Part shown: positions 1 to 12,052 of the stretch, piece after piece
How the letters are laid out: each line of letters starts with the position of its first letter
How positions within the stretch are numbered: the stretch's first letter is position 1
NCBI GenBank assembly: GCA_021782995.1
Contig: JAJXUI010000004.1
Coordinates: forward strand, 1 to 64,000
Source: Pseudomonadota bacterium
Lineage (GTDB): Bacteria > Pseudomonadota > Gammaproteobacteria > Burkholderiales > Gallionellaceae
DNA length: 64,000 nt
Direction: 5' to 3'
Translations under genes and position numbers: made by a program
Notes under the pieces: model-generated
Told to the model about the DNA's origin: nothing
Seen by the model: only the letters and a program-made list of their open reading frames with translations
Database searches by the model: none

Positions 1-1396
1 GGCCCGCGGCAAAGCCTGCACACGCATCTTCATTCAGCGGCTCATACACCTGGCCATTCGGCTCCTGGTTGTAGAGCGGGTCCTGGGTTGGATGGCGGAT
101 CTTCAGCGCATCGTTGATGTTCTTCATCGCCGAAGCTTCAGTGCCGTCCGCATTGGTCACGACAAATTTCGGATCGGCCTTGCCCACCTGTGCCACCAGC
201 GCACCCATCGCGGTGGAAGGCACGGCCTTTTCACCTTTGGCAAAGTCCTGCATGTTGAGTGCGGGCAGCTTGGGAATGCTCAATTCAAATTCGGTCACAA
301 CCGTCTTTACAGCCGGTCCGCCACCGGCGCGGCCGAAGTTGGTGCGCACAATGTTGAATGCCTCGGGTGTCAACGCTCGGCGCTGCAGGCCTTCCACGAT
401 ATGGGCGGCATCCAGGGTATCGGCCGGATACAGGTTGTGCGATTTCGCACCGGTGGTATGCACGCCGGTGCCTTTCAACTGCTTGATGATGAACACGGTC
501 AGCTTGCCACTCATCGCGGATTTGGCAGCATAGTCCACGCCCTGCAATACGGCCTTGGCAAATTCCAGGCGCTTCGCGAAACTGAAGCGTGAGCTGTCAA
601 CATATTCGCCGCTCTGCTTGCTGTCGTCGAAATCCTTGGCATTCACCAGCACCACCTCATCGAAGCCATGACCATACCAGTAGGCAATCATGTCCTCATT
701 GGTGTGCAGCGAAACCATCGAGTGGTGTTCCTGCGAATAGCCGTTCCAGATCAGCACCGGCAGAAAATTGGTGACATCCGGATACGCGGTGTGGAAGTGC
801 ATCATCGAATTCAATACATAAGGCTCGCCCATGCCGCCGTCGCCGATGGTGACGGGGAACAGTTTATCTCGATGCAAGTAAGCACCGGCCATTGCAAAGT
901 GCTGGCCCTGGCCCAAGGGGCCGGCTGGTGCCAGCAGGCCGGGAATCGCGCCGGAGAGATGGCCGAGCAAGCCATGCTTTTCGCGGAAGCGCTGCATCAT
1001 GTCATCCATGTTGTAGATGTTCATGCTTTCCAGCGAGCCATCGAGGAACATCGAAGAGTAGAAGCCTGGCGCGTGGTGGCCAACTTCAGTCACGATATTG
1101 GTGTGGCCCAGCATCATCAGCGCAGCGTGTGCCTCCGCGCTGGAAGCAAAACCGCCGGGGTGACCGGAACCTTTGGAGCCGCACACCTGCAGCGTGACAT
1201 AACGCAACGCGTCGGCACCGAGCAATGTCTGGTAGGCAGCAGCATCATCGGCGGAATTGCTGATCGCGCTCTGGCCTTCGCCGATTACTGGCTTGCTGGC
1301 GTATTTGTCAAAATCAGGCCAGGGGTTGCCAAAGAATTTGATGCCTTGGGTAAAGTCGGAAGTGGCATCCATTTTTTGTGCGGTTGCGGTTTGCAT
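1..1396 (-). CDS. Transketolase-like thiamine-diphosphate enzyme (3' end cut by window edge)
   Basis: The minus strand reads open from an ATG at 1396, with AGGAAA a few bases before it, to the left edge, giving 465 codons. Residues 78-82 read GHPGG and 159-164 read GPLGQG, both transketolase hallmarks. The ThDP/Mg motif starts with GDG at 185-187 and ends with Asn218. By family it should bind ThDP and move or cleave two-carbon ketol units of sugar phosphates. The long acidic N-terminus (FGNPWPDFDKY) and the HHAPG stretch at 107-111 differ from the textbook housekeeping enzyme, so the exact substrate is open. It is divergent from an IclR regulator with paired inverted repeats between them, so local control is likely. 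A phosphoketolase is less likely because its typical N-terminal motifs are absent. Confidence 0.8.
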   Translation of the reverse strand, partial: MQTATAQKMDATSDFTQGIKFFGNPWPDFDKYASKPVIGEGQSAISNSADDAAAYQTLLGADALRYVTLQVCGSKGSGHPGGFASSAEAHAALMMLGHTNIVTEVGHHAPGFYSSMFLDGSLESMNIYNMDDMMQRFREKHGLLGHLSGAIPGLLAPAGPLGQGQHFAMAGAYLHRDKLFPVTIGDGGMGEPYVLNSMMHFHTAYPDVTNFLPVLIWNGYSQEHHSMVSLHTNEDMIAYWYGHGFDEVVLVNAKDFDDSKQSGEYVDSSRFSFAKRLEFAKAVLQGVDYAAKSAMSGKLTVFIIKQLKGTGVHTTGAKSHNLYPADTLDAAHIVEGLQRRALTPEAFNIVRTNFGRAGGGPAVKTVVTEFELSIPKLPALNMQDFAKGEKAVPSTAMGALVAQVGKADPKFVVTNADGTEASAMKNINDALKIRHPTQDPLYNQEPNGQVYEPLNEDACAGFAAG

Positions 1397-1432
1397 GGCT
1401 ATTTCCTCATATCATTAAAATTCGGTGCCCGT

Positions 1433-1468
1433 ATTTCATTCTGTATAATGCATTTCATATTGTGAAAT
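1433..1468. promoter_or_regulatory. Operator-like inverted repeat pair in front of the transketolase-like gene
   Basis: A perfect inverted repeat ATTTCA-TATTG-TGAAAT occupies 1452-1468. A weaker copy, ATTTCA-TTCTG-TATAAT, starts 19 bases earlier at 1433. The centre-to-centre distance is close to two helical turns, as expected for side-by-side dimers. IclR-family proteins commonly bind such short palindromes between themselves and a divergent target, so these are inferred sites for the neighbouring regulator. Confidence 0.55.
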
Positions 1469-1539
1469 ATCAGGGGGCTAAAAAACGGCCAGTTGTGGGT
1501 TGGCCGTATGTTTGACGACACCTTACCAATTGTTTTATT

Positions 1540-1575
1540 ATTTCGCAATACACAATCGATTTCACATTATGAAAT
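1540..1575. promoter_or_regulatory. Second operator-like pair abutting the IclR start codon
   Basis: A perfect repeat ATTTCA-CATTA-TGAAAT lies at 1559-1575, directly touching the ATG at 1576. A degenerate copy (ATTTCG-CAATA-CACAAT) starts exactly 19 bases upstream at 1540. The spacing copies that of the pair at 1433-1468. Binding here would cover the start of the regulator gene, which fits autorepression (inference). Confidence 0.5.
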
Positions 1576-2373
1576 ATGAATACCGTTAATCCAGAAACAA
1601 ATCAAGAAGTCCCGCAAGAAACCTCAGGTTCCTCCATCCAGGTGATAGACCGCCTCGCCCGCCTGCTGGATGTCATCGCCGCCAGCCCCGGCCCGGTGAG
1701 CCTGAAAATCCTCGCCGCCGAAACCGGGCTGCACCCCTCCACCGCGTTCCGCATCTTGGGTGCGCTGGGTACGGTGGGGTATGTCGAGCGCGATGTGAAC
1801 AGCCATTATTCAATTGGCCGCAAGCTCGCGCGCCTGGGCGCCAAGGTGCGCACCGGGGTGGATGTGCGCGAAGAAGCACGCAGTGTGATGGAAAAACTGC
1901 GGGACCAGCTGGGTGAAACCATCAACCTCACCGTGCGCGAAGGCGATGAAGTGATCTATGTCGAGCGCGCCACCTCCAACCGCATGATGCGCGTAGAGCA
2001 GGTGATCGGTAGCCGCGCGCCGCTGCACGTCACCGCGGTGGGCAAGCTCATGCTGGGCGAACTGGGCGATGCCTTTATTCGTGCCTATGCAAAGCGCACC
2101 GGCCTCAAGGCCTATACAAAGTTCACCTATGCAACACAAGATTCATTATTAAAGGCCGTGCATGAAGCCAGCGAGCAAGGTTTTGCATTCGATAATGAAG
2201 AAGCGGAAATCGGTGTGGGCTGCATCGGCGTGCTGATCCGTGATGGCAGCGGCGAAGTGGTTGCGGGGCTTTCAACTTCGGCACCAATCGAAAGGCGCAA
2301 GGATGAATGGGCAGCGATACTGCAAAAGGCGGCGGAGGAAATTTCGGAACGTATGGGGTATAGAGGGGAGTGA
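1576..2373 (+). CDS. IclR-family transcriptional regulator
   Basis: This 265-residue protein has the IclR layout. A winged helix-turn-helix lies at about residues 22-85, with the recognition-helix region LHPSTAFRILGALGTVGYV. An effector domain at about 95-260 has the usual TINLTVREGDEVIYVER and GCIGVLIRDG elements. It should be a cytoplasmic dimer or tetramer responding to a small metabolite. The divergent transketolase-like gene and the paired inverted repeats between them make that gene the obvious target (inference). The ATG at 1576 has no Shine-Dalgarno in front of it, because the preceding bases are the palindrome. A leaderless mRNA or a later start is therefore possible, but the HTH begins only about 20 residues in, so little room exists downstream. 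Confidence 0.9.
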   Translation: MNTVNPETNQEVPQETSGSSIQVIDRLARLLDVIAASPGPVSLKILAAETGLHPSTAFRILGALGTVGYVERDVNSHYSIGRKLARLGAKVRTGVDVREEARSVMEKLRDQLGETINLTVREGDEVIYVERATSNRMMRVEQVIGSRAPLHVTAVGKLMLGELGDAFIRAYAKRTGLKAYTKFTYATQDSLLKAVHEASEQGFAFDNEEAEIGVGCIGVLIRDGSGEVVAGLSTSAPIERRKDEWAAILQKAAEEISERMGYRGE

Positions 2374-2404
2374 AGCTTAATTAATCCAAAATTAATGGAA
2401 TGAT

Positions 2405-3445
2405 ATGACTTTAATTGTCGCAAGAATACTAGATGATAATGTAAGTATTGAGAGTGATACTCTTGCATTTCAAGTTGAAAGTACAAAACAAAACTTACTA
2501 AATATTGCGATAAAGTCAGTAATTGTCACGCCATATATAGCAGTATGTTATGCGGGTGCAATTAAACCTGCACTTGAAGCGATAAAAGCGCTGTTTGCAT
2601 TTGTACAATATGAAAAGCAACTAAAAGACAGACAATTAATTGAGATACTTCTGGAATTTCATTTTAGAGCTTATAAGGAAACTGATTTCATTTTAGTGGT
2701 AAGTGAATGTCCGCAACCTAGAATTTATAAAATTTCACAAGGTGTTTGCCATGATGATATTCAATCTGCATGGATTGGAGATCAAGAAGGGTTTTCATAT
2801 TTCCAGATGTATTGCCATTCTGATTCACATTTATATGAAAATGACGTAAGCAAAATGATTCGTCACAGATTGGCATTCAGAAAAATTGTAGAGCATAGAC
2901 TTTGTTCAACAATTGATGGATTTCCAATATCAGTTCAAACAATGGGAAGTGAAAAAAAATTAAAATATTCATATTCCGGCGGAATTGTCGTGCCAAAGCA
3001 AATCCATTCATATGGAGAGATACCAACTATCAGACTAGAAAGTCTAAATAAAGATGGATATTCATATTCAATTCTTTCATCCGATGAAAATTCGAAATCA
3101 GCTATATGCATATATATTTCACAATTAAAAAAAGCCTTTCTTTACATACCTTCACATTCACTTGAAGTGAAAGAATATGAAAATGTAGAAATACTAAATT
3201 TTGTACAACAAGTTAAAAACGAATTTAATGCTCTGCTTCGTGGTAAACACTTTGATTGTGAAACAAAAGGTATTGTAGAAATAAATTTGGACAACCCCAA
3301 AGATGTTTCATATATACGAGTAACTACTAAAGAGGAGGGGATAACTGATATCCCCGAAAAGGAAATGCTACATGTAGAAACTAGTAGAAAAAATAAAACC
3401 AGAGTAATTTCAAAATTATTGCAAATTCTTAATAAAAAATTTTGA
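2405..3445 (+). CDS. AT-rich hypothetical protein with a proteasome/HslV-like N-terminal region
   Basis: This 346-residue protein has codon use clearly more AT-rich than its neighbours, suggesting recent transfer. After Met1 the chain starts TLIVARILDD and continues IESDT, matching the opening strands of HslV and proteasome beta subunits (TTIVSVRR..VVIAGDG). In mature numbering Thr1 would be the nucleophile, Asp17 is present, and Lys36 lies near the expected Lys33. A YIAVCYAG segment then parallels the HslV KVIAGFAG strand, and WIGDQEGFSYFQ parallels the IGSGGPYA loop. The C-terminal half (about residues 180-346) is not recognised. Inference: an Ntn-hydrolase-fold peptidase or amidase. It has no HslU or ATPase partner nearby and is longer than HslV (about 175). 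A GGAA lies about 5 bases before the ATG. Confidence 0.6.
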   Translation: MTLIVARILDDNVSIESDTLAFQVESTKQNLLNIAIKSVIVTPYIAVCYAGAIKPALEAIKALFAFVQYEKQLKDRQLIEILLEFHFRAYKETDFILVVSECPQPRIYKISQGVCHDDIQSAWIGDQEGFSYFQMYCHSDSHLYENDVSKMIRHRLAFRKIVEHRLCSTIDGFPISVQTMGSEKKLKYSYSGGIVVPKQIHSYGEIPTIRLESLNKDGYSYSILSSDENSKSAICIYISQLKKAFLYIPSHSLEVKEYENVEILNFVQQVKNEFNALLRGKHFDCETKGIVEINLDNPKDVSYIRVTTKEEGITDIPEKEMLHVETSRKNKTRVISKLLQILNKKF

Positions 3446-3460
3446 AGGAAACACAAATAA

Positions 3461-3477
3461 ATGGGGTCGGACTCGAT
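3461..3477. repeat. Dispersed GGGTC-ACTCGA motif, copy 1
   Basis: ATGGGGTCGGACTCGAT just after the AT-rich gene. Related motifs occur at 4041, 5421 and 5711 in the same islet. Such sequences are familiar next to REP-associated transposase (RAYT) debris in proteobacteria. Confidence 0.45.
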
Positions 3478-3482
3478 ACAGA

Positions 3483-3507
3483 CCTCTTAGGAGGTGGTGT
3501 TAAGAGG
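3483..3507. repeat. Inverted repeat in front of the acetyltransferase gene
   Basis: CCTCTTA at 3483-3489 pairs with TAAGAGG at 3501-3507 around an 11-base loop that contains AGGAGG-like bases. It lies 17 bases before the ATG at 3525. It may be a mobile-element end or a leader hairpin; the sequence alone does not decide. Confidence 0.35.
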
Positions 3508-3524
3508 CCACAAGTGAAGAAATT

Positions 3525-4013
3525 ATGGAACGTATCGTCTTAGCCGATTTATCAGATCCTGCTCACAGTGAAGCAGTTGTCTTTCTGCTGAATGAGTATG
3601 CGTCGGGTGAAATGGGTGGCGGCGTGGAGCTGACGGACTTTGTGAAACAGAACCTGGTAGCAGAGTTGCATAAACGTGCAGGCAGCATCCATTCAGTATT
3701 GGCTTTTATCGATAACGAGCCTGCAGGTTTGGCAATTTGTGTGGAAGGGTTTTCCAGCTTTGCCTGTAAGCCTCTGTTGAATGTGCATGATATTGTTGTG
3801 GCATCGAAGTTCAGGGGGCGAGGACTGTCAAAGCGGATATTGGCGAGGATTGAAGCGCTCGCGGTGGAACTGGGCTGCTGCAAGCTGACGCTAGAGGTTC
3901 TGGAAGGCAACAAGGTTGCTCAGAGCGCCTATAAGGCATTTGGTTTTGAAGGTTATGAACTGAATCCCAGGACGGGAAAGGCGCTATTCTGGCAAAAGAA
4001 ATTGGGCAATTAA
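3525..4013 (+). CDS. GNAT-family N-acetyltransferase
   Basis: 162 residues, the usual single-domain GNAT length. Strand beta4 and the acetyl-CoA pyrophosphate loop are visible as VHDIVVASKFRGRGLSKRIL, with the R-G-R-G-L-S loop at 97-102. The C-terminal motif B appears as LEVLEGNKVAQSAYKAFGFE. It transfers an acetyl group from acetyl-CoA to an amine; the substrate cannot be read from sequence. The gene stands alone between mobile-element debris, with weak ribosome-binding signal (GAAG) before the ATG, and belongs to the accessory islet. Confidence 0.85.
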   Translation: MERIVLADLSDPAHSEAVVFLLNEYASGEMGGGVELTDFVKQNLVAELHKRAGSIHSVLAFIDNEPAGLAICVEGFSSFACKPLLNVHDIVVASKFRGRGLSKRILARIEALAVELGCCKLTLEVLEGNKVAQSAYKAFGFEGYELNPRTGKALFWQKKLGN

Positions 4014-4427
4014 TTTGCTGCATTCACAATGGTGTCTGGAATGGGTTCAGTCTCGATTTAAACATGCGTTCAATTTGCTGCTTGAGTCTTGCAGATATCA
4101 ACCTGAAATTTTTTGCATGCAGTATCAAATCGCTCATTTCTGCCAGAACGCGCAGCAATTTCAGTGTGAAAAAAAATTCATATTCAATCAGCCTCATATT
4201 CATTAAATGGAATAATCATTACAGCCTTGATGAAGTGGTGATGGGTCATTGCAGCTGCACCCCTCGCAGAGGGGATGCTTAGGCAGATTGGAGTAGGGTG
4301 TGGAAGAGGTAGGGATGGTAGGATGGTTTGGAGGAAATCAAGTTTTCACTTGAATATCTTCGGGTTCCCTTGTGCACTGAAAGCCAGCCAAGTTGTATTC
4401 CTCTACTAATGACTACAGGAGTCAAAC
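4014..4427. other. Intergenic stretch without a convincing gene
   Basis: Short open frames here lack family features and start signals. Visible structure: a copy of the dispersed motif at 4041, a tight hairpin CCCCTC-GCA-GAGGGG at 4260-4274 with no following T-run, and a purine-rich G/A stretch at about 4290-4345. An AGGAG at about 4417 serves the lipoprotein gene downstream. Confidence 0.5.
4041..4060. repeat. Dispersed GGGTC-ACTCGA motif, copy 2
   Basis: ATGGGTTCAGTCTCGATTTA; shares ATGGG-TC-CTCGA with the copies at 3461 and 5711 and CGATTTAAA with the one at 5421. Confidence 0.4.
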
Positions 4428-4451
4428 ATGAAAACATCCATGAAAACATCC
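4428..4451 (+). repeat. Tandem 12-base repeat containing the start codon
   Basis: ATGAAAACATCC occurs twice in tandem, followed by ATGGAA. Each unit adds an in-frame Met-Lys-Thr-Ser, so slippage would change signal-peptide length and start choice without breaking the frame. Confidence 0.85.
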
Positions 4452-5393
4452 ATGGAAAAACACAAAAGAATTGAGATATTCCTTTCCATTACCGCACGAT
4501 CACGTTATTCCGGATTAATTGCATTAATCGCTGCAGCATTCACCTTTGCTCTTGGTGGTTGTGTTACGACGGGATCTAATCTCACGCAAACAATCTATAC
4601 TCCCCCGGTTGCAGGTATGGGAACCTACCAATGGATGCGCGGAACAATCAACGATGGCTCGAGCGGCCCAATTGCTTCATGCAATCCCCCCACGCCGCCG
4701 GCACCTGCCTTTCCTGCTGAACCCGATCCGGGTGAATTACTCGTGGGTTACCAGGACTGGCGCAATACCGTAACAGATACGAACGGTGCGGTATGCCCAT
4801 CGTCACGCGCGAAGCGGTGGCATGGTTTGGCAGTATTCGACATGAGCGCGGTAGCCGCGGACTTGAGCGGGTCACCTCACAAGCTGTTGACCGCATCGCT
4901 GACTTATAAGATCGGTGCATGGCAAAAAATTCCGCAGTCAGCACAAGACATAGATCTGTGCGTACGCACACTGGAATTTGCCAGGGGATACGAAACACCC
5001 TCTCCATTCGCCATAGTCGAGCTCGATCCACGTGCTGGCAATTTCCCGCAAAGCGCACCTTCCAGTCTGGGCCCGATCAATCTGCCGAATCATGTTCCGT
5101 TTGGTCAAACAACAGTATCAGGACCGGTAACGGTAAATCCTGCGGGACCACAGCCAAGCGTTACAGTTGATGTTACGCTTCTGATCAGTGACTGGGCGCA
5201 GGCTCTCGCACAAGAACCGGCAAACAGTGCCGAACGGGGACGGTTTGGCATTTCCTTTCTGCCGTTTGGTCCGACAATACAACAATTGGGCCTTACCAAT
5301 TCGCCGCCGACACCTGTGCCTGTCAGTCGCTCAACCGCTCGCTGTACCTCAATCCTTAAAGATATGAATCTGAAGGTGACAGTTGGCAGATAA
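4428..5393 (+). CDS. Putative lipoprotein of unknown function
   Basis: This 321-residue protein has a long basic N-terminus and a hydrophobic stretch at about 29-42 ending in the lipobox LGGC, with Cys45 the expected lipidated residue. The mature part is rich in Pro, Ser and Thr, with DWRNTVTDTNGAVC, a Trp-rich patch and a beta-rich C-terminal half containing PSVTVDVTLLISDWAQAL. This is the look of a secreted beta-sandwich domain that binds a surface or glycan, but no family is recognised. Three in-frame ATGs (4428, 4440, 4452) lie in a tandem repeat. The first best fits the AGGAG about 7 bases upstream, though a shorter signal peptide from Met9 would also work. It stands alone in the accessory islet. 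Confidence 0.65.
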   Translation: MKTSMKTSMEKHKRIEIFLSITARSRYSGLIALIAAAFTFALGGCVTTGSNLTQTIYTPPVAGMGTYQWMRGTINDGSSGPIASCNPPTPPAPAFPAEPDPGELLVGYQDWRNTVTDTNGAVCPSSRAKRWHGLAVFDMSAVAADLSGSPHKLLTASLTYKIGAWQKIPQSAQDIDLCVRTLEFARGYETPSPFAIVELDPRAGNFPQSAPSSLGPINLPNHVPFGQTTVSGPVTVNPAGPQPSVTVDVTLLISDWAQALAQEPANSAERGRFGISFLPFGPTIQQLGLTNSPPTPVPVSRSTARCTSILKDMNLKVTVGR

Positions 5394-5420
5394 ACCAAAA
5401 GAATGCTGACCCTGTAATAT

Positions 5421-5440
5421 ATGGTCAGCTTCGATTTAAA
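5421..5440. repeat. Dispersed GGGTC-ACTCGA motif, copy 3 (divergent)
   Basis: ATGGTCAGCTTCGATTTAAA shares its 3' half (TCGATTTAAA) with copy 2 at 4041. Confidence 0.3.
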
Positions 5441-5680
5441 TAGGCAATAGTTTGGACGTATGTAATCCTGCAGAAATGCCAACGAGTTTACTGCATGCCG
5501 GATTCAAATCCGAAAGTCTCCTCCAAGAAGTGCGATCACTTCACGAACAAATTCAGTCAGACTGGATACATTCTCAATATTGATTATTAGTAAATAGCAA
5601 CGCAGGGGTTCCCTGTCATCATCGTGCTAAAATCTGTCATTAACTGAAGTGGGTAGCTTCACATTCTTTCAGGACAAAGC

Positions 5681-5713
5681 ATGCCACGTCGCCCAGGCAT
5701 TCAACTAGCCGGA
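5681..5713 (+). pseudogene. N-terminal scrap of a REP-associated tyrosine transposase (RAYT)
   Basis: The bases encode MPRRPGIQLAG, closely resembling the conserved first residues of Y1/RAYT transposases (typically MPRRPRIQLxGxP). Only about 11 codons remain. The sequence then runs straight into a GGGTCAAACTCGA motif, as if the whole body of the gene had been deleted between its start and its downstream flank. This explains the related motifs scattered nearby. The match is short, so the call is moderate. Confidence 0.45.
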
Positions 5714-5730
5714 ATGGGTCAAACTCGAAT
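5711..5730. repeat. Dispersed GGGTC-ACTCGA motif, copy 4
   Basis: GGAATGGGTCAAACTCGAAT, fused to the transposase scrap that ends at 5713. Confidence 0.45.
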
Positions 5731-5873
5731 GATTAATGAGTCAAGCATCTGCCGTAATCCAGTTAATTGATTTCAAAAGTTTCCTGCAGCGGGAGCGGCA
5801 ATTTCGTATTCCTTCCTCGCTAGTTTCGAAGTGCGTAATTGGATTGCTGGTCCCGAGTTCCCGCAAACTCTTC

Positions 5874-5901
5874 TTGACTCAATTGTCGTTGTACATACAA
5901 T
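5874..5901 (+). promoter_or_regulatory. Promoter and operator of the brnTA locus
   Basis: TTGACT at 5874-5879 and TACAAT at 5896-5901 with a 16-base spacer form a good sigma-70 promoter. The imperfect palindrome TTGTACATACAA at 5889-5900 covers the -10 region. BrnA is known to repress its own promoter, so this is the expected operator position. The promoter has survived although the toxin gene has decayed. Confidence 0.6.
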
Positions 5902-5907
5902 GTAAAT

Positions 5908-6205
5908 ATGATCAAGTTTGAATGGGATAAAGCATAGCTGCCGCCAACTTGTGCAAGCATTGCGTTTCCTTTGAGGAGGCGCAGTCCGTGATTTACGATG
6001 ACTACGCCATCCAGTTGTTTGATGATACCCGTTCCGAAGCTGAAGATCGCTATTGATACTGGGTTTCAGTGATGAAGCAAGATTGCTGATTGTGTGAAAA
6101 TGCGTAAGGGAGCACGGAAATGTGATCCGCATATTCTCAGCCAGGAAAGCCACCAAATCGAGGACAAATATAATTCTGGAGGGCAAAGATGAAAATGGAA
6201 TATGA
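5908..6205 (+). pseudogene. brnT: Decayed BrnT toxin gene
   Basis: The start reads MIKFEWDKA and then hits TAG. After a frame change the BrnT core resumes as AANLCKHCVSFEEAQSVIYD, then DDTRSEAEDRY and a second stop. It continues in other frames as LGFSDEARLLIV and finally VIRIFSARKATKS before a TGA at 6203-6205. BrnT ribonucleases begin with FEWDxxKxxxNxxKHGVSFEEA and end with IRIISARKAT, so the family is clear. At least one nonsense codon and several frameshifts remove function. The residual frame overlaps the brnA start by 17 bases, the normal brnTA arrangement. Confidence 0.8.
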
Positions 6206-6416
6206 CCTGTCAAAAATGCAATCGCGCAAAAACCCGTATGCAGCCAAGCTCAAGAAGTTGGTCACCATGCGTTTGAGCGAGGATGTGATTGCCTATTTCA
6301 AGCAAATGGCTGAAGAGGCCGGGGTCCCCTACCAGAGCCTGATCAACCTGTATTTGCGCGATTGTGTCGCACAACATCGCAAGGTGGATATTTCATGGCA
6401 GACGCAGAACAAATAA
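6189..6416 (+). CDS. brnA: BrnA-type antitoxin (orphan)
   Basis: 75 residues. It opens with MEYDLSKMQSRKNPYAAKLK and continues with a ribbon-helix-helix segment, VTMRLSEDVIAYFKQMAEEAG, then VPYQSLINLYLRDC, all typical of BrnA/CopG-like antitoxins. By family it neutralises BrnT and represses the operon promoter through its RHH domain. The gene is intact, while the toxin before it is broken. An AGGG lies about 7 bases before the ATG. Retention suggests a DNA-binding role or recent loss of the toxin. relA begins 11 bases after its stop. Confidence 0.82.
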   Translation: MKMEYDLSKMQSRKNPYAAKLKKLVTMRLSEDVIAYFKQMAEEAGVPYQSLINLYLRDCVAQHRKVDISWQTQNK

Positions 6417-6427
6417 ACTGATTCACC

Positions 6428-8650
6428 ATGGTTTCAGTTACACAATCCCTATCACCGAATGCCAGCCAGGACGCCAAAGATATCGCGCTCTGGCTGGAGA
6501 GTCTCGCACTGCACTTCAAGCCGGAAGAAATCGCCGAAATCCGCCGCGCGATCGAGTTTGCCGTGCCATTGTATGCAGACGCCACCGAGCTGACCGGGGT
6601 CCCGGTGCTGCAGCATGCGCTGGGAACGGCATCCATCCTGATCGGCATGAATCTGGATCATGAGGCGATGATCGCGGCCATATTGCATGCGCTGCCGGAT
6701 TATCTGGATGCCTGGATGGAGCAGGTGGCCACTGCTTTCAACGCGAATATCGTGGCGCTGGTGCAGGGCATTTCACGCATGGAGCAGATCCAGATTTTCA
6801 GCGACCTGCACAAACAGGAAAAAGCCGACCAGGCGCAGCAGGTGGAAAGCCTGCGCAAGATGCTGCTGGCGATGGTGGATGATATCCGTGTGGTGCTGAT
6901 CAAGCTGGCCGAGCGCACGCAGACCATGCGCATGCTGAAGGGCGCGTCGCCCGAAGACCAGCAGCATATTGCGCGCGAGATACGCGGCATTTTTGCGCCA
7001 CTGGCGAATCGCCTGGGGGTGTGGCAGGTGAAGTGGGAGCTGGAAGATCTTGCGTTGCGCTACCTTGAGCCGGAGCTGTACAAGAAAACCGCCAAGCTGC
7101 TGGATGAGCGGCGGGTGGACCGCGAGCAGTATATCGAGGATGTGAAGGCGCAGTTGAAACTGGAATTGCAGCAGGCCGGCATCACGGCAGAGGTGAGCGG
7201 CCGCTCAAAGCACATCAACAGCATCGTCAACAAGATGAAGCGCAAGAAGGTGGAGTTCAGCGAATTGTATGATGTGCGTGCGGTACGCATTCTGGTGGAC
7301 GATGTGAAGGCGTGCTACACCGCGCTGGGCATCGTGCACAACCTGTGGCAGCCGATCCCCAGCGAATTTGACGACTATATCGCCCATCCCAAGAGCAACG
7401 ACTACCGCTCGCTGCACACTGCGGTGGTGGGCCCGCGAGGGCTGGCGCTGGAGGTGCAGATCCGCACGCATGAAATGCATCAGCATTCCGAACTGGGCGT
7501 GGCGGCGCACTGGCGCTACAAGGAAGGCGGCAAGTCAGACAGCAAATATGAAGAGAAGATTGCCTGGCTGCGGCAGATCCTGGAATGGAAGGAAGATGTC
7601 AGCGATAGTGGTGAAAACGGTGACATGGTGGAGCAGTTCAAGAGCGAATTGTTCCAGGACCAGGTGTATGTGCTGACCCCGCAAGGCAAGGTGATCGACC
7701 TGCCCAAGGGCGCGACACCGGTGGATTTTGCCTACACGCTGCACACCGACCTTGGCCACCGCACGCGCGGCGCCAAGGTGGATGGCAATATCGTGCCGCT
7801 GAACTACCAGCTGCAGAACGGTCAGCGCGTGGAAATCCTCGCGGCTAAGCAGGGCGCGCCCAGCCGCGACTGGATCAACCCGTCGCTGGGTTACCTGCAC
7901 AGCAACCGCGCGCGCGCCAAGGTGAAGCACTGGTTCAAGCACCAGCACCATGATGAAAACGTGGCGCAGGGACGCGCGCAGCTGGACCGTGAATTGCACC
8001 GGCTGGGCGTGGGCGCGGTGAACCAGGAAAAGCTGGCGCAGCGCCTCAACTTCCACAAGCTGGAAGATTTCCTCGCCGCGATCGGCCGCGGCGATGTGAC
8101 TTCGCGGCAGATATTGAATGCGATACAGGAAGAAAGCCCGATCAAAGCCGAGCAGCCTGTCAAGTCACTGGGCAGCAAATCGACGGCTTCACGCACCAGT
8201 GCTAATGGCGTGCTGGTGGAGGGCGTGGATAACCTGATGACGAAGATGGCCAAGTGCTGCAAGCCCGCGCCACCAGACCAGATTGTTGGATATGTCACAC
8301 TCGATCACGGTGTCACCATCCATCGCAAGGATTGCGCGGCAATGCAGCGTGTACCTGAAGATCGCCGCGACAGGGTGCTCAATGCGCAATGGGGCCGCAA
8401 GCAGGATGCCAAGTTCAGTGTGGATATCGAAGTGGTGGCTTACGACAGACAGGGATTGCTGCGCGATGTGATCGAGCTGCTTGCCAAGGAAAAGGTGAAT
8501 GTGACCAAGGTGAACACCTTCAACCGCATCAATCAGGCTTTTATGCAATATACGCTGGATATCCTCGATCTTGAGCAGTTGAGCAAAATCCTCGCGCTGC
8601 TACAGCACCTGCCGAATGTCATCAGTGCTAAACGAAAGGGACAGCGCTAA
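6428..8650 (+). CDS. relA: GTP pyrophosphokinase, (p)ppGpp synthetase RelA
   Basis: 740 residues in the long RSH order. The N-terminal HD-like domain carries HALPDY at 87-92 instead of the HDxxED of active hydrolases, marking a synthetase-only RelA. The synthetase domain contains HPKSNDYRSLHT and VQIRTHEMHQHSELG. The TGS domain starts at VYVLTPQGKVIDLPKGATPVDFAY. A zinc-finger-like region has KCCKPAPPD, and a C-terminal ACT domain begins near FSVDIEVVAYDRQGLL. It makes (p)ppGpp on ribosomes stalled by uncharged tRNA. No clear Shine-Dalgarno precedes the ATG, and the gene follows brnA by 11 bases. It may therefore be translationally coupled to it. Confidence 0.95.
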   Translation: MVSVTQSLSPNASQDAKDIALWLESLALHFKPEEIAEIRRAIEFAVPLYADATELTGVPVLQHALGTASILIGMNLDHEAMIAAILHALPDYLDAWMEQVATAFNANIVALVQGISRMEQIQIFSDLHKQEKADQAQQVESLRKMLLAMVDDIRVVLIKLAERTQTMRMLKGASPEDQQHIAREIRGIFAPLANRLGVWQVKWELEDLALRYLEPELYKKTAKLLDERRVDREQYIEDVKAQLKLELQQAGITAEVSGRSKHINSIVNKMKRKKVEFSELYDVRAVRILVDDVKACYTALGIVHNLWQPIPSEFDDYIAHPKSNDYRSLHTAVVGPRGLALEVQIRTHEMHQHSELGVAAHWRYKEGGKSDSKYEEKIAWLRQILEWKEDVSDSGENGDMVEQFKSELFQDQVYVLTPQGKVIDLPKGATPVDFAYTLHTDLGHRTRGAKVDGNIVPLNYQLQNGQRVEILAAKQGAPSRDWINPSLGYLHSNRARAKVKHWFKHQHHDENVAQGRAQLDRELHRLGVGAVNQEKLAQRLNFHKLEDFLAAIGRGDVTSRQILNAIQEESPIKAEQPVKSLGSKSTASRTSANGVLVEGVDNLMTKMAKCCKPAPPDQIVGYVTLDHGVTIHRKDCAAMQRVPEDRRDRVLNAQWGRKQDAKFSVDIEVVAYDRQGLLRDVIELLAKEKVNVTKVNTFNRINQAFMQYTLDILDLEQLSKILALLQHLPNVISAKRKGQR

Positions 8651-8783
8651 AAGCATAAGGTCATGCTGTCACAGGATACTTATGCAACACTTAAACGGAT
8701 AGCAAAAAGAGGAATACGGGAACATCCTGTCAGCTAAAAACTAACATGCTGAATATATTAATATAAATATCTCGGTCATGCGC

Positions 8784-8810
8784 TAAATTTACTGCAGGAT
8801 TGACCGATAA
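8784..8810 (+). promoter_or_regulatory. Sigma-28 (FliA) type promoter of the chemoreceptor gene
   Basis: TAAA at 8784-8787, 15 bases, then ACCGATAA at 8803-8810. The consensus is TAAA-N15-GCCGATAA, so only one core base differs. The start codon lies 35 bases downstream, preceded by GGGGGA. Confidence 0.65.
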
Positions 8811-8845
8811 TAATTCCATAATGGAACGCATCACCTGGGGGAAAT

Positions 8846-10504
8846 ATGCAGCAACGCATCTGGTCATATCTGATTCACCTTACACCTGCATTTGTCATTT
8901 CCCTGATAATTTCGCTGCTCAGCTCCTGGTTGTTCTCTGAAATTTCCCTGACCGGAATCACCCTGTCGATACTCTCCATTGCTGTCGCCATCATTTCCTT
9001 TTCCACAGCACTGTACCTTACAGTTTTCAGGAATATCCTGCATACGGAAGCATCGCTTGCAAAGCAGGAGTCTGTCGAAAACCTGTTAGGCAGCAATTGG
9101 CTGTTTGCCGGCGTCATCAGGCATTTCAAGGCAGGCACGGAAAAAATCCTGAAAGTAATCGGCCAGTTCAGCAAGACCATAGAAAGCAACTCGGTTTCAC
9201 TGGCGGAAACTTCGAAAGAGGTCAAGGAGCTGGTGGCCAGTATCGATGTGATGACGAGTCATACCTTGGAAATCAAGGCTGCTTCTGCGTCCATCCGCAG
9301 TGCAGCCGAACAGGTAAGAACCTATTCTCAGCAAGCAATGCAGGTTGCCAGCGAAGCACGTAAAGACAGTGCAAATGGGCAGGCGACCATTGCAAAGGTT
9401 GTAATTGATGTGCGGGATATCGCAAACCATACGGTTCAAACCTCCACAAGCATTTCCAACTTGCTCAGCCAGACTGCAAATATCCAGAAGGTTGTCCAGT
9501 CCATCAAGGAAATTGCTGATCAGACCAACTTGCTGGCATTAAATGCGGCGATAGAAGCAGCCCGTGCAGGTGAATCCGGCCGTGGGTTTGCCGTGGTGGC
9601 AGATGAAGTTCGCAAGCTGGCAGAAAAAACTGGCAATGCCACGCAAAACATCACACGCCAGATAACCGACATTCATGCCGAGACGGAAAATGCGGTATCG
9701 GTGATGAAAAATCTCGGTGTACGGGTCAATGCAGGGGTAGACGGAATCGAGCTGGTGGGTGAGCAGCTGGGTTCCATGTTCAGGCATGCAGAAAATCTTG
9801 AAGAAGAAATCGGCGTGATTTCCAGGCAGGCCATGGCAAATCAGGATGAAGTGGAAAAGATTTACCAGTCGATAGAATCCATGAATATCCAGATGCAGGG
9901 TGTTGAGCAGAAAATGGATACGGTATCAGACAAAACCCGGGGTCTGGCTGAAATCGGGGAGGGCTTGCTGGCAGGCATGGTTGAGGCAGAAATCGATTCC
10001 GTCCATACTCGCATATACAGAATGGCAACCGAACTCTCAAGCGCTATGGAGGCGCGGATGCTGCAGGGCATCACTGCCCGGCAGATTACAGAGTCTGATC
10101 TGTATGACAGGAATTATGTACCTTTACCGAACAGCAATCCGCTGAAATATTCCTCGAAGTTTGACAAATTCATGGATCAAATTGCACCAGCACTGCAGGA
10201 ACCGCTGCTGGAAGCCAATCCATTTATCGTCTTCGCCATCGTGCTGGATGATCGCGGATATTGCCCTACTCATAACAGGAAGTATGCCAAACCGCTGACA
10301 GGGAATTATGAAAAGGACCTGCTGAATAACCGCACGAAGCGAATTTTTGACGATCTTGCCGCAAAGCGCAGCGCAGCCAATCGTGATCCATTGCTGATCC
10401 AGACTTATGTGCGCGATACAGGTGAAATTCTGCATGACCTGACAGTGCCGCTCAGGCTGAACAATCGGCACTGGGGGCATGTGAGAATCGGCTACAGGAC
10501 CTGA
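8846..10504 (+). CDS. Methyl-accepting chemotaxis protein with C-terminal sensor-like domain
   Basis: 552 residues. Two hydrophobic segments fill about 12-30 and 36-60, with almost no periplasmic loop. No HAMP domain is obvious. The signalling hairpin tip is clear: [41 protein letters not shown] (about residues 222-262, given here in part by its key elements). After the coiled coil, residues about 390-552 form an extra domain ending [20 protein letters not shown]. This tail resembles cytoplasmic Cache/PAS-like tails of some receptors and probably senses an internal signal. The FliA-type promoter links it to flagellar motility. It stands alone. Confidence 0.88.
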
Positions 10505-10537
10505 ATAAGCAGGATATTCGCTATCAGCCCGATTAAA

Positions 10538-11095
10538 TCAGGGTCGGCAGTTTTCCCTGGCAATGTGCAACCTGGCCAGATGCAATGCAAATCTGAGCGC
10601 AATTGCAAGCAGACTGGCCGGTAACCACACCCATAGCAATTCTGACTGCAGCACTGTCAGGAAGCGTTCTGTCAGCAAATGATCAGTGCCAATTGGCGAA
10701 ACCTTGATCACTTGCTGCGGGAAAAAATAACGAGCGGAACTGAAGGGCCAGAAGAAGGCCACACCCAGCCCGCCAGTCGTCAGCGCATCCAGTACGCCGT
10801 GTGACGCCATGCTGACAAACAGGAAGCTGAAAACTTTACCAGTGCTGCTGTGAAACTGGCGTGCGAAAGCGCTGCCGGAAAGCGCAACCAGCATGGCAAT
10901 CGAAAGCGAATGGCTGATACCGCGATGCCCAAAGTCGCTGGCATAGGCGATATGCAGTTTGAAGGCAATGACATCGAGATCGGGCAGGATGGATAACACG
11001 ATGCCGGCAAGCAGCAAGCGTGGTGGCACGATGTTGCAGCCCAGTCCCAGGCCGACTGCCAGGGGTACGGCCGGATGGGTGAAAATCGTCGGCAT
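10538..11095 (-). CDS. YdjM/DUF457-type membrane-bound metal-dependent hydrolase
   Basis: 185 residues with about four hydrophobic segments. It begins MPTIFTHPAVPLAVGLGLG and contains LPDLDVIAF followed by FGHRGISHSL. These Asp and His residues form the conserved metal site of the family. It is predicted to be an inner-membrane hydrolase; the substrate is unknown. In E. coli the relative YdjM is an SOS gene, but no LexA box was seen here. It lies 6 bases after the PilZ gene on the same strand and is probably the last gene of that unit. Confidence 0.8.
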   Translation of the reverse strand: MPTIFTHPAVPLAVGLGLGCNIVPPRLLLAGIVLSILPDLDVIAFKLHIAYASDFGHRGISHSLSIAMLVALSGSAFARQFHSSTGKVFSFLFVSMASHGVLDALTTGGLGVAFFWPFSSARYFFPQQVIKVSPIGTDHLLTERFLTVLQSELLWVWLPASLLAIALRFALHLARLHIARENCRP

Positions 11096-11101
11096 GAGGG
11101 A

Positions 11102-12052
11102 TCAGCCCTCGGCTTGTTCGTTCATCATGTTCTGGTAAAGCAGGGCGGTGATCACCAGCTGGTCCTGCGGTTCCAGCCGGGTGAACGACAGTCCGTGAAG
11201 GGTATTGTTGTTGCCACCGTCGGCGGAAACTGATGCATTGATGGAACGGATTTCACAATCGATCATCAGCATGTGTTCGGCCTTGTTTACATTGACGCGC
11301 ATTTTCAGGATGAGTTTGCTTCCGATCTCGCCGATTTTTTCCTTCGCGGCGATCAGTGCGCCGCCGGTACTGATGTCGCGGGCAACACAGGCGAAGCCGG
11401 TGTCGTTGGCCACCGAGGCGTGGCAGATGATGTTGGTCTTTGCACGCGAGCTGCTGCGCACCACGAGGCCACGTACTTCCCTCGGCCATGCCAGGTGGAT
11501 GTGCGGAAAGGGGATGTTGGTGACCCGGGTCACCTCGGCAGTAAAGGCATAGGCGCTTTTGCCGCTGAACATGCGCACGACAAAGGATTGCCCTTCTCGG
11601 AACATCATGATACGGCCATCCATCTGCGGTGTGGAAACGATCACGCCCTCGTCTTCAAGATAGCCGATCAGCGTGGTGGCATAGCGGTCGACATTGGTAT
11701 TGGCTTTCAGCTGCAGTTGCAGCGTGTCGCCAATATTGAGCTTGATCTGGGTCAGCGACGTGGCATCTCCGCGTGGCGGGGCGACGGGCTCTGCCTGCTT
11801 CTGGCTGGGCCTGGGTTGTTGCAGGTTAAGAGTGGCATGCTCTTCCGGTTCAGGCTTCCTTGCTTCAAGCTCGGTAGGATAGCGGCACAGCCCGCGCTCC
11901 ATCAGATTGATGATCTGGTCTTCCGATTCCGGAATGAAGCCGATGTCCACCGCCATATCGCCATTGGAAAAATAGACCGGCCATGGCGTCGGCATGCCGA
12001 CACGCATTTCCGTCAGTTTGAGCCGCTTGAGTTTGGGTTCATTCTTGTCCAT
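11102..12052 (-). CDS. PilZ-domain protein (YcgR-like, c-di-GMP binding)
   Basis: 316 residues. After an N-terminal segment (about 1-65, LKLTEMRVGMPTPWPVYF) comes a YcgR-N-like beta domain at about 95-190. The PilZ domain follows, with the c-di-GMP motif parts RSSSR and DISTGGA visible. YcgR relatives brake the flagellar motor or adjust other surface machinery when c-di-GMP is high. Position: just downstream of the PTS genes (54 bases after ptsI) and upstream of the ydjM-type gene on the same strand. Its link with the PTS is contextual only. Confidence 0.82.
   Translation of the reverse strand: MDKNEPKLKRLKLTEMRVGMPTPWPVYFSNGDMAVDIGFIPESEDQIINLMERGLCRYPTELEARKPEPEEHATLNLQQPRPSQKQAEPVAPPRGDATSLTQIKLNIGDTLQLQLKANTNVDRYATTLIGYLEDEGVIVSTPQMDGRIMMFREGQSFVVRMFSGKSAYAFTAEVTRVTNIPFPHIHLAWPREVRGLVVRSSSRAKTNIICHASVANDTGFACVARDISTGGALIAAKEKIGEIGSKLILKMRVNVNKAEHMLMIDCEIRSINASVSADGGNNNTLHGLSFTRLEPQDQLVITALLYQNMMNEQAEG

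Follow-up and report, generated by a model that had tools for sequence, protein, structure and literature searches.

The gene at positions 2405 to 3445 on the forward strand of the window (i.e., the whole 64,000-nucleotide stretch of DNA analyzed here) encodes a protein of 346 amino acids (aa) that is most likely an ATP-independent N-terminal-threonine hydrolase carrying a C-terminal extension. Our computations support its proteasome fold, its conserved catalytic residues, its obligatory Met-Thr start and its foreign nucleotide composition. Taken as a whole, we consider it probable that the product is a cytosolic, stand-alone proteasome-like N-terminal nucleophile (Ntn) hydrolase that uses Thr2 as its nucleophile, possesses a C-terminal extension, acts independently of an ATPase, and was acquired horizontally from a Bacteroidota-like source.

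Only the ATG at 2405 is usable as a start codon, since the closest in-frame stop lies at 2393-2395 and no ATG, GTG or TTG occurs between that stop and ATG 2405; thus, the 346-aa product begins Met-Thr (N terminus, MTLIVARILDDNVSIESD) and a propeptide is impossible. More specifically, Thr2 (codon 2408-2410), the proposed N-terminal nucleophile once Met is removed, is followed by Asp18 (2456-2458; proteasome Asp17), Lys37 (2513-2515; proteasome Lys33, offset by a 3-residue insertion) and Gly51 (2555-2557; proteasome Gly47, of the oxyanion hole), all encoded on the forward strand. Numbered from Thr2 as in the mature protein, the latter three are residues 17, 36 and 50, i.e., Lys and Gly are each shifted 3 positions later than in the proteasome and the spacing between them is unchanged (14). 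These positions agree with the original prediction for this gene, which had noted Thr right after Met, Asp at mature position 17 and Lys near 33-36. As a chance check, we counted how many of the 852 frames that begin with ATG and span 60 aa or more in the window fit the spacing M[TS]-x15-D-x(10,24)-K-x13-G, and found 2 (the 346-aa ORF and one unrelated frame), so that the motif alone is weak and it is the homologues and the fold that carry the case.

The query was unmatched in Pfam, NCBIfam and PADLOC. Its sole match among PDB sequences (E 0.77) was at chance level, as was the only one obtained with a family profile (E 1.1). Likewise, nothing below E 0.037 was found for it in PHROGs, in which family members gave isolated weak matches (best 0.0061), each in 1 of 15 members. 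None of these 15 members matched PF00227 at E≤1, and one relative (L070) scored below threshold (E 0.017; 15.2 bits versus a cut-off of 22.4). When genomes of the family (158), the class (369) and the phylum (398) were searched with the single protein, they returned the gene itself and one further match (L002), which overlaps an ORF that reads as ApbE-like in translation and which we rejected as a chance match. Scans of viral and genome collections with eight-residue peptides from the query alone gave no relative (86 genome pattern matches), MTLIVAR-like and AWIGD-like DNA patterns were not found in viral contigs, and tblastn of 50,697 phage and 72,556 plasmid records produced no match for the query or for its Algoriphagus relative, L063. 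The family, with members in, e.g., Flavobacterium, Algoriphagus, Halomonas and Methylobacter, is unrecognized by Pfam and NCBIfam, and among the open-licence papers listed, titles and abstract openings pointed to no other work on it.

Relatives were sought with a degenerate DNA pattern encoding the T/D/K/G active-site spacing, in a loose and a strict version. The strict version identified 18 loci in genome contigs, of which 12 belong to Bacteroidota and 6 to Pseudomonadota according to record titles (the latter being Halomonas, Roseateles, Methylobacter, Nitrospirillum and two 'Proteobacteria bacterium' MAGs), together with a single viral locus, L047. All 18 genomic loci matched the query by phmmer, the best being L052 (Aurantibacter; 103.7 bits) and L063 (Algoriphagus; 100.2 bits) and the lowest score, 13.5 bits, belonging to a 61-aa frame; L047, searched as part of the same 19-sequence file, gave no match. 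In L049 and L058, the shortest frames at 61 aa and 84 aa, respectively, the similarity lies mostly inside the pattern region. The loose version gave 26 matches in viral contigs, several of them proteasome-like phage proteins, and none of the 26 was similar to the query by phmmer (best E 0.5), indicating that the similarity of the relatives was not created by the pattern alone.

Profile searches, in which the active-site pattern was not used, covered genomes related to that of the window, with Bacteroidota genomes lying outside the sample. The family was present in 4 of 274 genomes of the class sample and 3 of 398 of the phylum sample (own genome included in both), in 1/3, 2/119 and 1/1 genomes of the families of genomes G346, G870 and G249, respectively, and in 1 of 253 genomes of the order, namely the window's own. 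The family is therefore rare within the genomes sampled. Broken or partial copies of the gene were seen in other genomes (L068, L073 and L049) and may reflect turnover of a dispensable gene.

To count active-site residues, we aligned 19 rows, comprising the window protein, 14 pattern loci and 4 profile-found relatives (L069, L070, L072 and L080); L068 and L073 were left aside, as their profile matches cover interior parts only and contain stops. Thr or Ser at position 2, Asp at the position of Asp18 and Lys at that of Lys37 were each present in 19/19 rows, and Gly at the position of Gly51 in 17/19, a conservation that is partly by construction because 14 of the relatives were selected by the T/D/K/G pattern. 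The profile-found relatives keep Ser, Ser, Thr and Thr, respectively, plus Asp and Lys at the expected spacing (4/4), and have Gly at the Gly47 position in two cases and Asn in the other two (L072 and L080); the latter pair is close and comes from one family, so that the four amount to about three independent lineages. L069 and L070 begin Met-Ser, and L072 (TTG) and L080 (GTG) begin Met-Thr. Overall, the query and 15 of the 19 relatives checked (a set without L049, L055 and L058) can start only at Met-[Thr/Ser], with upstream starts possible in L050, L063, L064 and L065. Non-conservation of Thr/Asp/Lys among homologues had been proposed as grounds for abandoning the idea; instead, T/S, D and K are kept, also in all four relatives found without the pattern.

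Outside the selection pattern, the family hallmark is WIG within the segment WIGDQEGF (residues 123-130; 2771-2794, forward strand), with W in 17/18, I/L in 18/18 and G in 18/18 of the rows covering the site. This segment is what had been described as an IGxxxGF loop: the WIG part is near-invariant, but D126, G129 and F130 vary, chiefly in rows other than Bacteroidota. In proteasomes, the active site is completed by the auxiliary residues Ser129, Asp166 and Ser169. We found that the IGSG of a phage proteasome-like protein aligns with WIG[D/variable] of the family, and that most rows have xx[IV]GG or a similar sequence in the segment preceding the last core strand, the proteasome aspartate being absent. 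On this reading of the alignment, the auxiliary residues are not evidently conserved in the family; if the reading is right, retention of the triad without them would leave room for a chemistry narrower than that of the proteasome.

Structure prediction with AF2 from the single sequence gave an unusable model (pLDDT 31). From a 15-row alignment, all rows of which fit the active-site pattern (L049, 61 aa; L050, 194 aa; and L055 and L058, both cut short, were excluded), the mean pLDDT was 74 and the pTM 0.74. The proteasome-fold domain (residues 1-190; 2405-2974, forward strand) was predicted with ten-residue-block pLDDT values of 82-97, including all of residues 31-140, except for blocks 21-30 and 141-150 (56 each). 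A linker (residues 191-220; block pLDDT 33-48) connects it to a C-terminal β-rich extension (approximately residues 221-293; 3065-3283, forward strand), which consists of strands and one helix, is aligned across the family, and has block pLDDT values of 81-88 over residues 221-280. The remaining tail (residues 294-346; 3284-3442, forward strand) corresponds to gaps in most relatives, and its pLDDT is <50 for residues 297-346.

Searching this model against the PDB with Foldseek yielded 1226 chains at E≤1e-3 (best E 3.6e-9), and the best 50 of the 1226 were all proteasome chains. When the 1000 best chains were realigned with VIA-align 2, Z scores reached 19.1 (rmsd 3.0 over 176 aligned residues; Thermoplasma proteasome, 6bdf_1), and all 50 rows listed were proteasome entries, some titled yCP. 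In many rows, the aligned range of the model ran from residue 2 to approximately 195, and model residue 2 formed the first aligned pair with chain residue 1 (e.g., 6bdf_1 and 1pma_1); judged from their spacing, Asp18, Lys37 and Gly51 should likewise coincide spatially with their proteasome counterparts. A viral structure library contained 20 similar structures at E≤1e-3, some named proteasome beta or HslV. Thus, where the original prediction had staked itself on the fold being of the Ntn type, AF2, Foldseek and VIA-align 2 all give a proteasome fold, and the predicted core is of the alpha-beta-beta-alpha type.

To relate the family to recognized proteasome-like proteins by profile, we used as reference a group of nine phage proteins found with the loose pattern, seven of which were scanned and all matched PHROG 1040 ('peptidase HslV family') at E values of 1e-6 to 7e-23. 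With hhalign, the family matched this group at a probability of 95.9% (score 60.7, columns 1-127), whereas none of 39 column shuffles scored above 14.5 and the reversed control scored 12.7; in an initial run with fewer sequences, the match was 95.0% and spanned columns 1-178. The phage group in turn matched HslV (96.4%), BPH (98.7%) and Anbu (40.1%). Compared directly, the family was negative against HslV (2.1%) and Anbu (2.4%) and weak against BPH (29.6%), and with the 15-row profile all three gave 0.1%. A second viral group fitting the loose pattern (L039 and three more) matched the family at 35.2%, and a decoy group at 1.1%. The suggestion of a proteasome/HslV-like Ntn hydrolase is accordingly upheld as to the proteasome fold, but HslV is not the nearest relative, and the link runs via phage proteins. 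In the window's own genome, which is 85% complete, a PF00227 search missed the 346-aa protein and showed no HslV-type match; two other proteins exceeded the cut-off, on contigs C73 and C51, and the former (L015) is BPH-like by motif.

Fuchs, Alva and Lupas (2021) described 22 new prokaryotic proteasome-like classes with a common core (PMC8665760). These classes share the catalytic residues T1/S1, D17 and K33 and the oxyanion-hole G47, and have no informative genomic context or AAA+ partner (PMC8665760). Our family fits this description and, compared by class descriptions only, may be one of the 22. The PHROG 1040 phage proteins, to which it is linked by the 95.9% profile match, share with it the Met-Thr start, D17, K33, G47 and an IG motif before helix H3, but they are 165-190 aa long and lack the C-terminal extension; they probably correspond to the PPH class, as we infer. 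PPH is reported to lack helix H2 (PMC8665760), which is present in the query model. The bacterial classes RPC, DAH, DPH, GPH and PMI resemble the family in being proteasome-like without known AAA+ partners (PMC8665760), and RPC and DAH also carry C-terminal domains (PMC8665760). RPC and DPH are, however, reported to be exclusive to Proteobacteria (PMC8665760), whereas the query family also occurs in Bacteroidota. As far as the class table of that paper is readable, its entries for the classes credited with C-terminal domains do not match this Bacteroidota occurrence, and DGH is named among such classes yet absent from the class table (PMC8665760).

Three specific assignments were rejected on the model. 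RPC lacks H2, and in PMI-6 two helices are inserted between S3 and S4 (PMC8665760); in the query model, helices 53-69 and 75-88 are both present, and strands 38-42 and 45-50 are linked by a two-residue turn. The third, connectase, is a monomeric proteasome-like ligase lacking H1-H2 and having a helical insertion between S3 and S4 (PMC8665760), and the query model has H1 and H2 and no such insertion. Relative to the 20S proteasome beta subunit, the query shares the predicted fold (Z up to 19.1), the T1/D17/K33/G47 set in register and the pairing of Thr2 with residue 1, but the identity is 11-16% over the aligned part (among the matches listed), and the query has a C-terminal extension, no possible propeptide and no partner ATPase recognized nearby. 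Gly51 occupies the Gly47 position, and the PHROG-1040-like proteins provide a profile relation to a recognized member. HslV (ClpQ) is similar in fold class and in its catalytic Thr/Asp/Lys, but has ~175 aa compared with 346 aa and a C-terminal extension in the query. The 346-aa protein thus has neither the compact ~175-aa subunit size of HslV nor an HslU recognized nearby, and, also in view of the 2.1% profile match, we rejected HslV identity. HslU was not recognized by eye in the ORF translations of 1-30 kb, four neighbors being also Pfam-scanned, and the observation that no ATPase lies nearby holds for the same translations, in which none was recognized.

Methionine aminopeptidase can remove Met that precedes Thr or Ser. 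In the mechanism that we favor, methionine aminopeptidase would strip Met1, with no propeptide involved, and the side chain of the freed Thr2 would attack an amide bond. Lys37 and Asp18 would tune the Thr2 nucleophile, the loop at Gly51 would form the oxyanion hole, and the active site would lie within the proteasome-fold domain (residues 1-190). The C-terminal extension (approximately 221-293) probably governs how substrates gain access or which partners are chosen. The enzyme would need no dedicated ATPase, and its substrates would be peptides, unfolded proteins or specific proteins. Catalysis itself, the peptide-bond substrate, the cytosolic location, the role of the extension and the donor of the gene are what we infer within this proposal.

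Of the competing explanations, a proteasome fold with non-proteolytic chemistry, whether that of a connectase-like ligase or transpeptidase acting on specific protein sites or that of a small-molecule amidase, is unlikely but carries some weight. Connectase shows that a monomeric proteasome-like protein can be a ligase (PMC8665760), the auxiliary protease residues seem, from our sequence reading, to be lost, and a C-terminal extension has been added. One of 15 members matches the connectase family PF09894 at chance level (E 0.16). In contrast, connectase lacks H1-H2, and both are present here (53-69 and 75-88).

That the protein is a phage-borne or anti-phage defense effector carried on islands, a reading raised by the original prediction, is a distinctly less probable explanation. 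For 15 relatives, we read the surrounding ORFs of at least 90 aa by eye, as had been recommended for homologues of the gene, and found no recurrent partner, which argues against a role in defense. Sixteen neighbor genes of relatives were submitted to PADLOC, and because the first 6 had been picked for looking interesting, no defense enrichment is claimed. Clear matches were obtained for three genes of locus L060 and one of L059. In L060 (Flavobacterium pectinovorum), positions 56-3727 hold a Septu-like candidate defense set (PDC-M62A/PDC-M62B; AAA and HNH genes), which ends 328 bp upstream of the family member, and the L059 member adjoins a candidate defense gene (PDC-S13). These two relatives are all that favors a defense role, and the query itself is unmatched by PADLOC. 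An island or phage setting is favored by the resolvase beside the Roseateles member (L054), by the foreign composition of the window copy and by the similar fold among phage proteins, but tblastn of the phage and plasmid records came back blank for both the query and L063. Phage origin of the window copy was rejected, given that the window has no tRNA and no phage gene was recognized nearby by eye.

Several other neighbors of relatives were recorded. A helicase beside L056 gave strong matches to GajB and DRT helicase models (1.9e-108) but reads as a housekeeping UvrD/Rep helicase; PADLOC matches at a second L056 gene (4.7e-6) and at L061 (1.3e-4) were discounted as weak. L053 adjoins a NERD-domain protein. 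At 4136-4624 of the Roseateles locus (L054), a small ORF with a hydrophobic N-terminal stretch, unmatched in Pfam and PADLOC, shares its last 4 bases with the beginning of the family member, and its product is a possible membrane-anchored partner. A fusion of a PP2C phosphatase and a protein kinase (L064, 1493-3205) adjoins the Nitrospirillum member.

Less probable still is that the protein is related in structure but catalytically silent, much like proteasome alpha subunits. The auxiliary residues and sometimes Gly47 vary, the window copy is divergent, foreign in composition and long-branched in the tree, and other genomes contain broken or partial copies. However, T/S, D and K are retained in 19/19 rows, four of which were not pattern-selected, and T/S can only be residue 2 in 15 of the 19 relatives checked. 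Alpha subunits, for their part, carry N-terminal extensions instead (PMC8665760). An accidental resemblance to Ntn hydrolases is hardly credible: used without its relatives, the sequence yields no significant database match and no usable model (pLDDT 31), but the fold match (Z of 19, 176 residues), a profile link that far exceeds the shuffles, and conserved residues in register contradict this explanation.

Returning to the stand-alone hydrolase that we prefer, it is a tentative thought, and one we doubt more than we believe, that the family forms a subfamily beyond the 22 classes of 2021, defined by the Thr/Ser-Asp-Lys triad, WIG and the C-terminal β-rich extension, and acting as a non-ring, ATP-independent, substrate-specific protease or ligase that spreads as a single accessory gene between Bacteroidota and Pseudomonadota. 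Proteasome-like proteins range from unspecific shredders through to the highly specific ligase connectase, which is reported to serve now as a laboratory tool (PMC10154401). With a single gene, an intact triad, an apparently simplified auxiliary site, its own C-terminal extension and no recognized ATPase partner, the present protein is directly expressible and testable. Its family would reveal the extent to which evolution has redeployed the proteasome fold beyond ring proteases, and is now a named sequence set (e.g., from Flavobacterium, Algoriphagus, Halomonas and Methylobacter) beyond Pfam and NCBIfam.

Regarding its origin, the GC content of the 346-aa gene is 31.2% (18.7% at third positions), compared with 54.2% for the window, and ranks lowest in a mechanically chosen set of 48 ORFs that do not overlap and are each 150 aa or longer, the next being 48.1%. 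Its upstream neighbor on the same strand, an IclR-type regulator (1576-2373; Pfam IclR_C, 7e-41; 58.4% GC), is native, is shared by 4 of 5 genomes in the genus (counting the window's own), and is divergent from a gene that reads in translation as pyruvate-dehydrogenase- or transketolase-like. Congeners L075 and L076 keep this pair, with other genes directly after IclR (by reading of translations, a FAD-linked-oxidase-like ORF and a GlcG-like ORF, respectively), and in congener L077 the pair is not retained. The 346-aa gene itself was not found in any of the four congeners by single-protein search. In a tree built from the first 300 residues of the query, with L055 and L050 included, the query fell on the Bacteroidota side of a split with moderate support (83/88), on a long branch. 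Horizontal acquisition from a Bacteroidota-like, AT-rich source is likely, and in the proposed scheme the window copy would have been gained in this manner, most likely from such a donor; the view of the gene as a transferred AT-rich one is supported by its GC content and by the comparison with congeners. Its supposed position among mobile debris found no such backing, in that the window has no tRNA and the four Pfam-scanned neighbor ORFs include no transposase or integrase.

Rfam at gathering score found no family in positions 1-12000. Promoter-like sites fell short of the mean for shuffles, and terminator-like sites were close to it. Downstream of the gene, a short sequence has 3 further three-mismatch matches in the window (at least 4 matches in 3 of 100 shuffles), making it a marginal candidate for a mobile-element trace. 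Imperfect repeats around CTCGAT at 3463-3477, 4043-4067 and 5425-5445 flank a GNAT gene and also occur after a 321-aa ORF; the copies at 4047 and 5425 are 81% alike over 21 nt. The repeats are marginal relative to shuffles and may be remnants of inserted units. At 6189-6416, the window contains an antitoxin gene of the BrnA/CopG type (Pfam BrnA_antitoxin, 3.3e-10).
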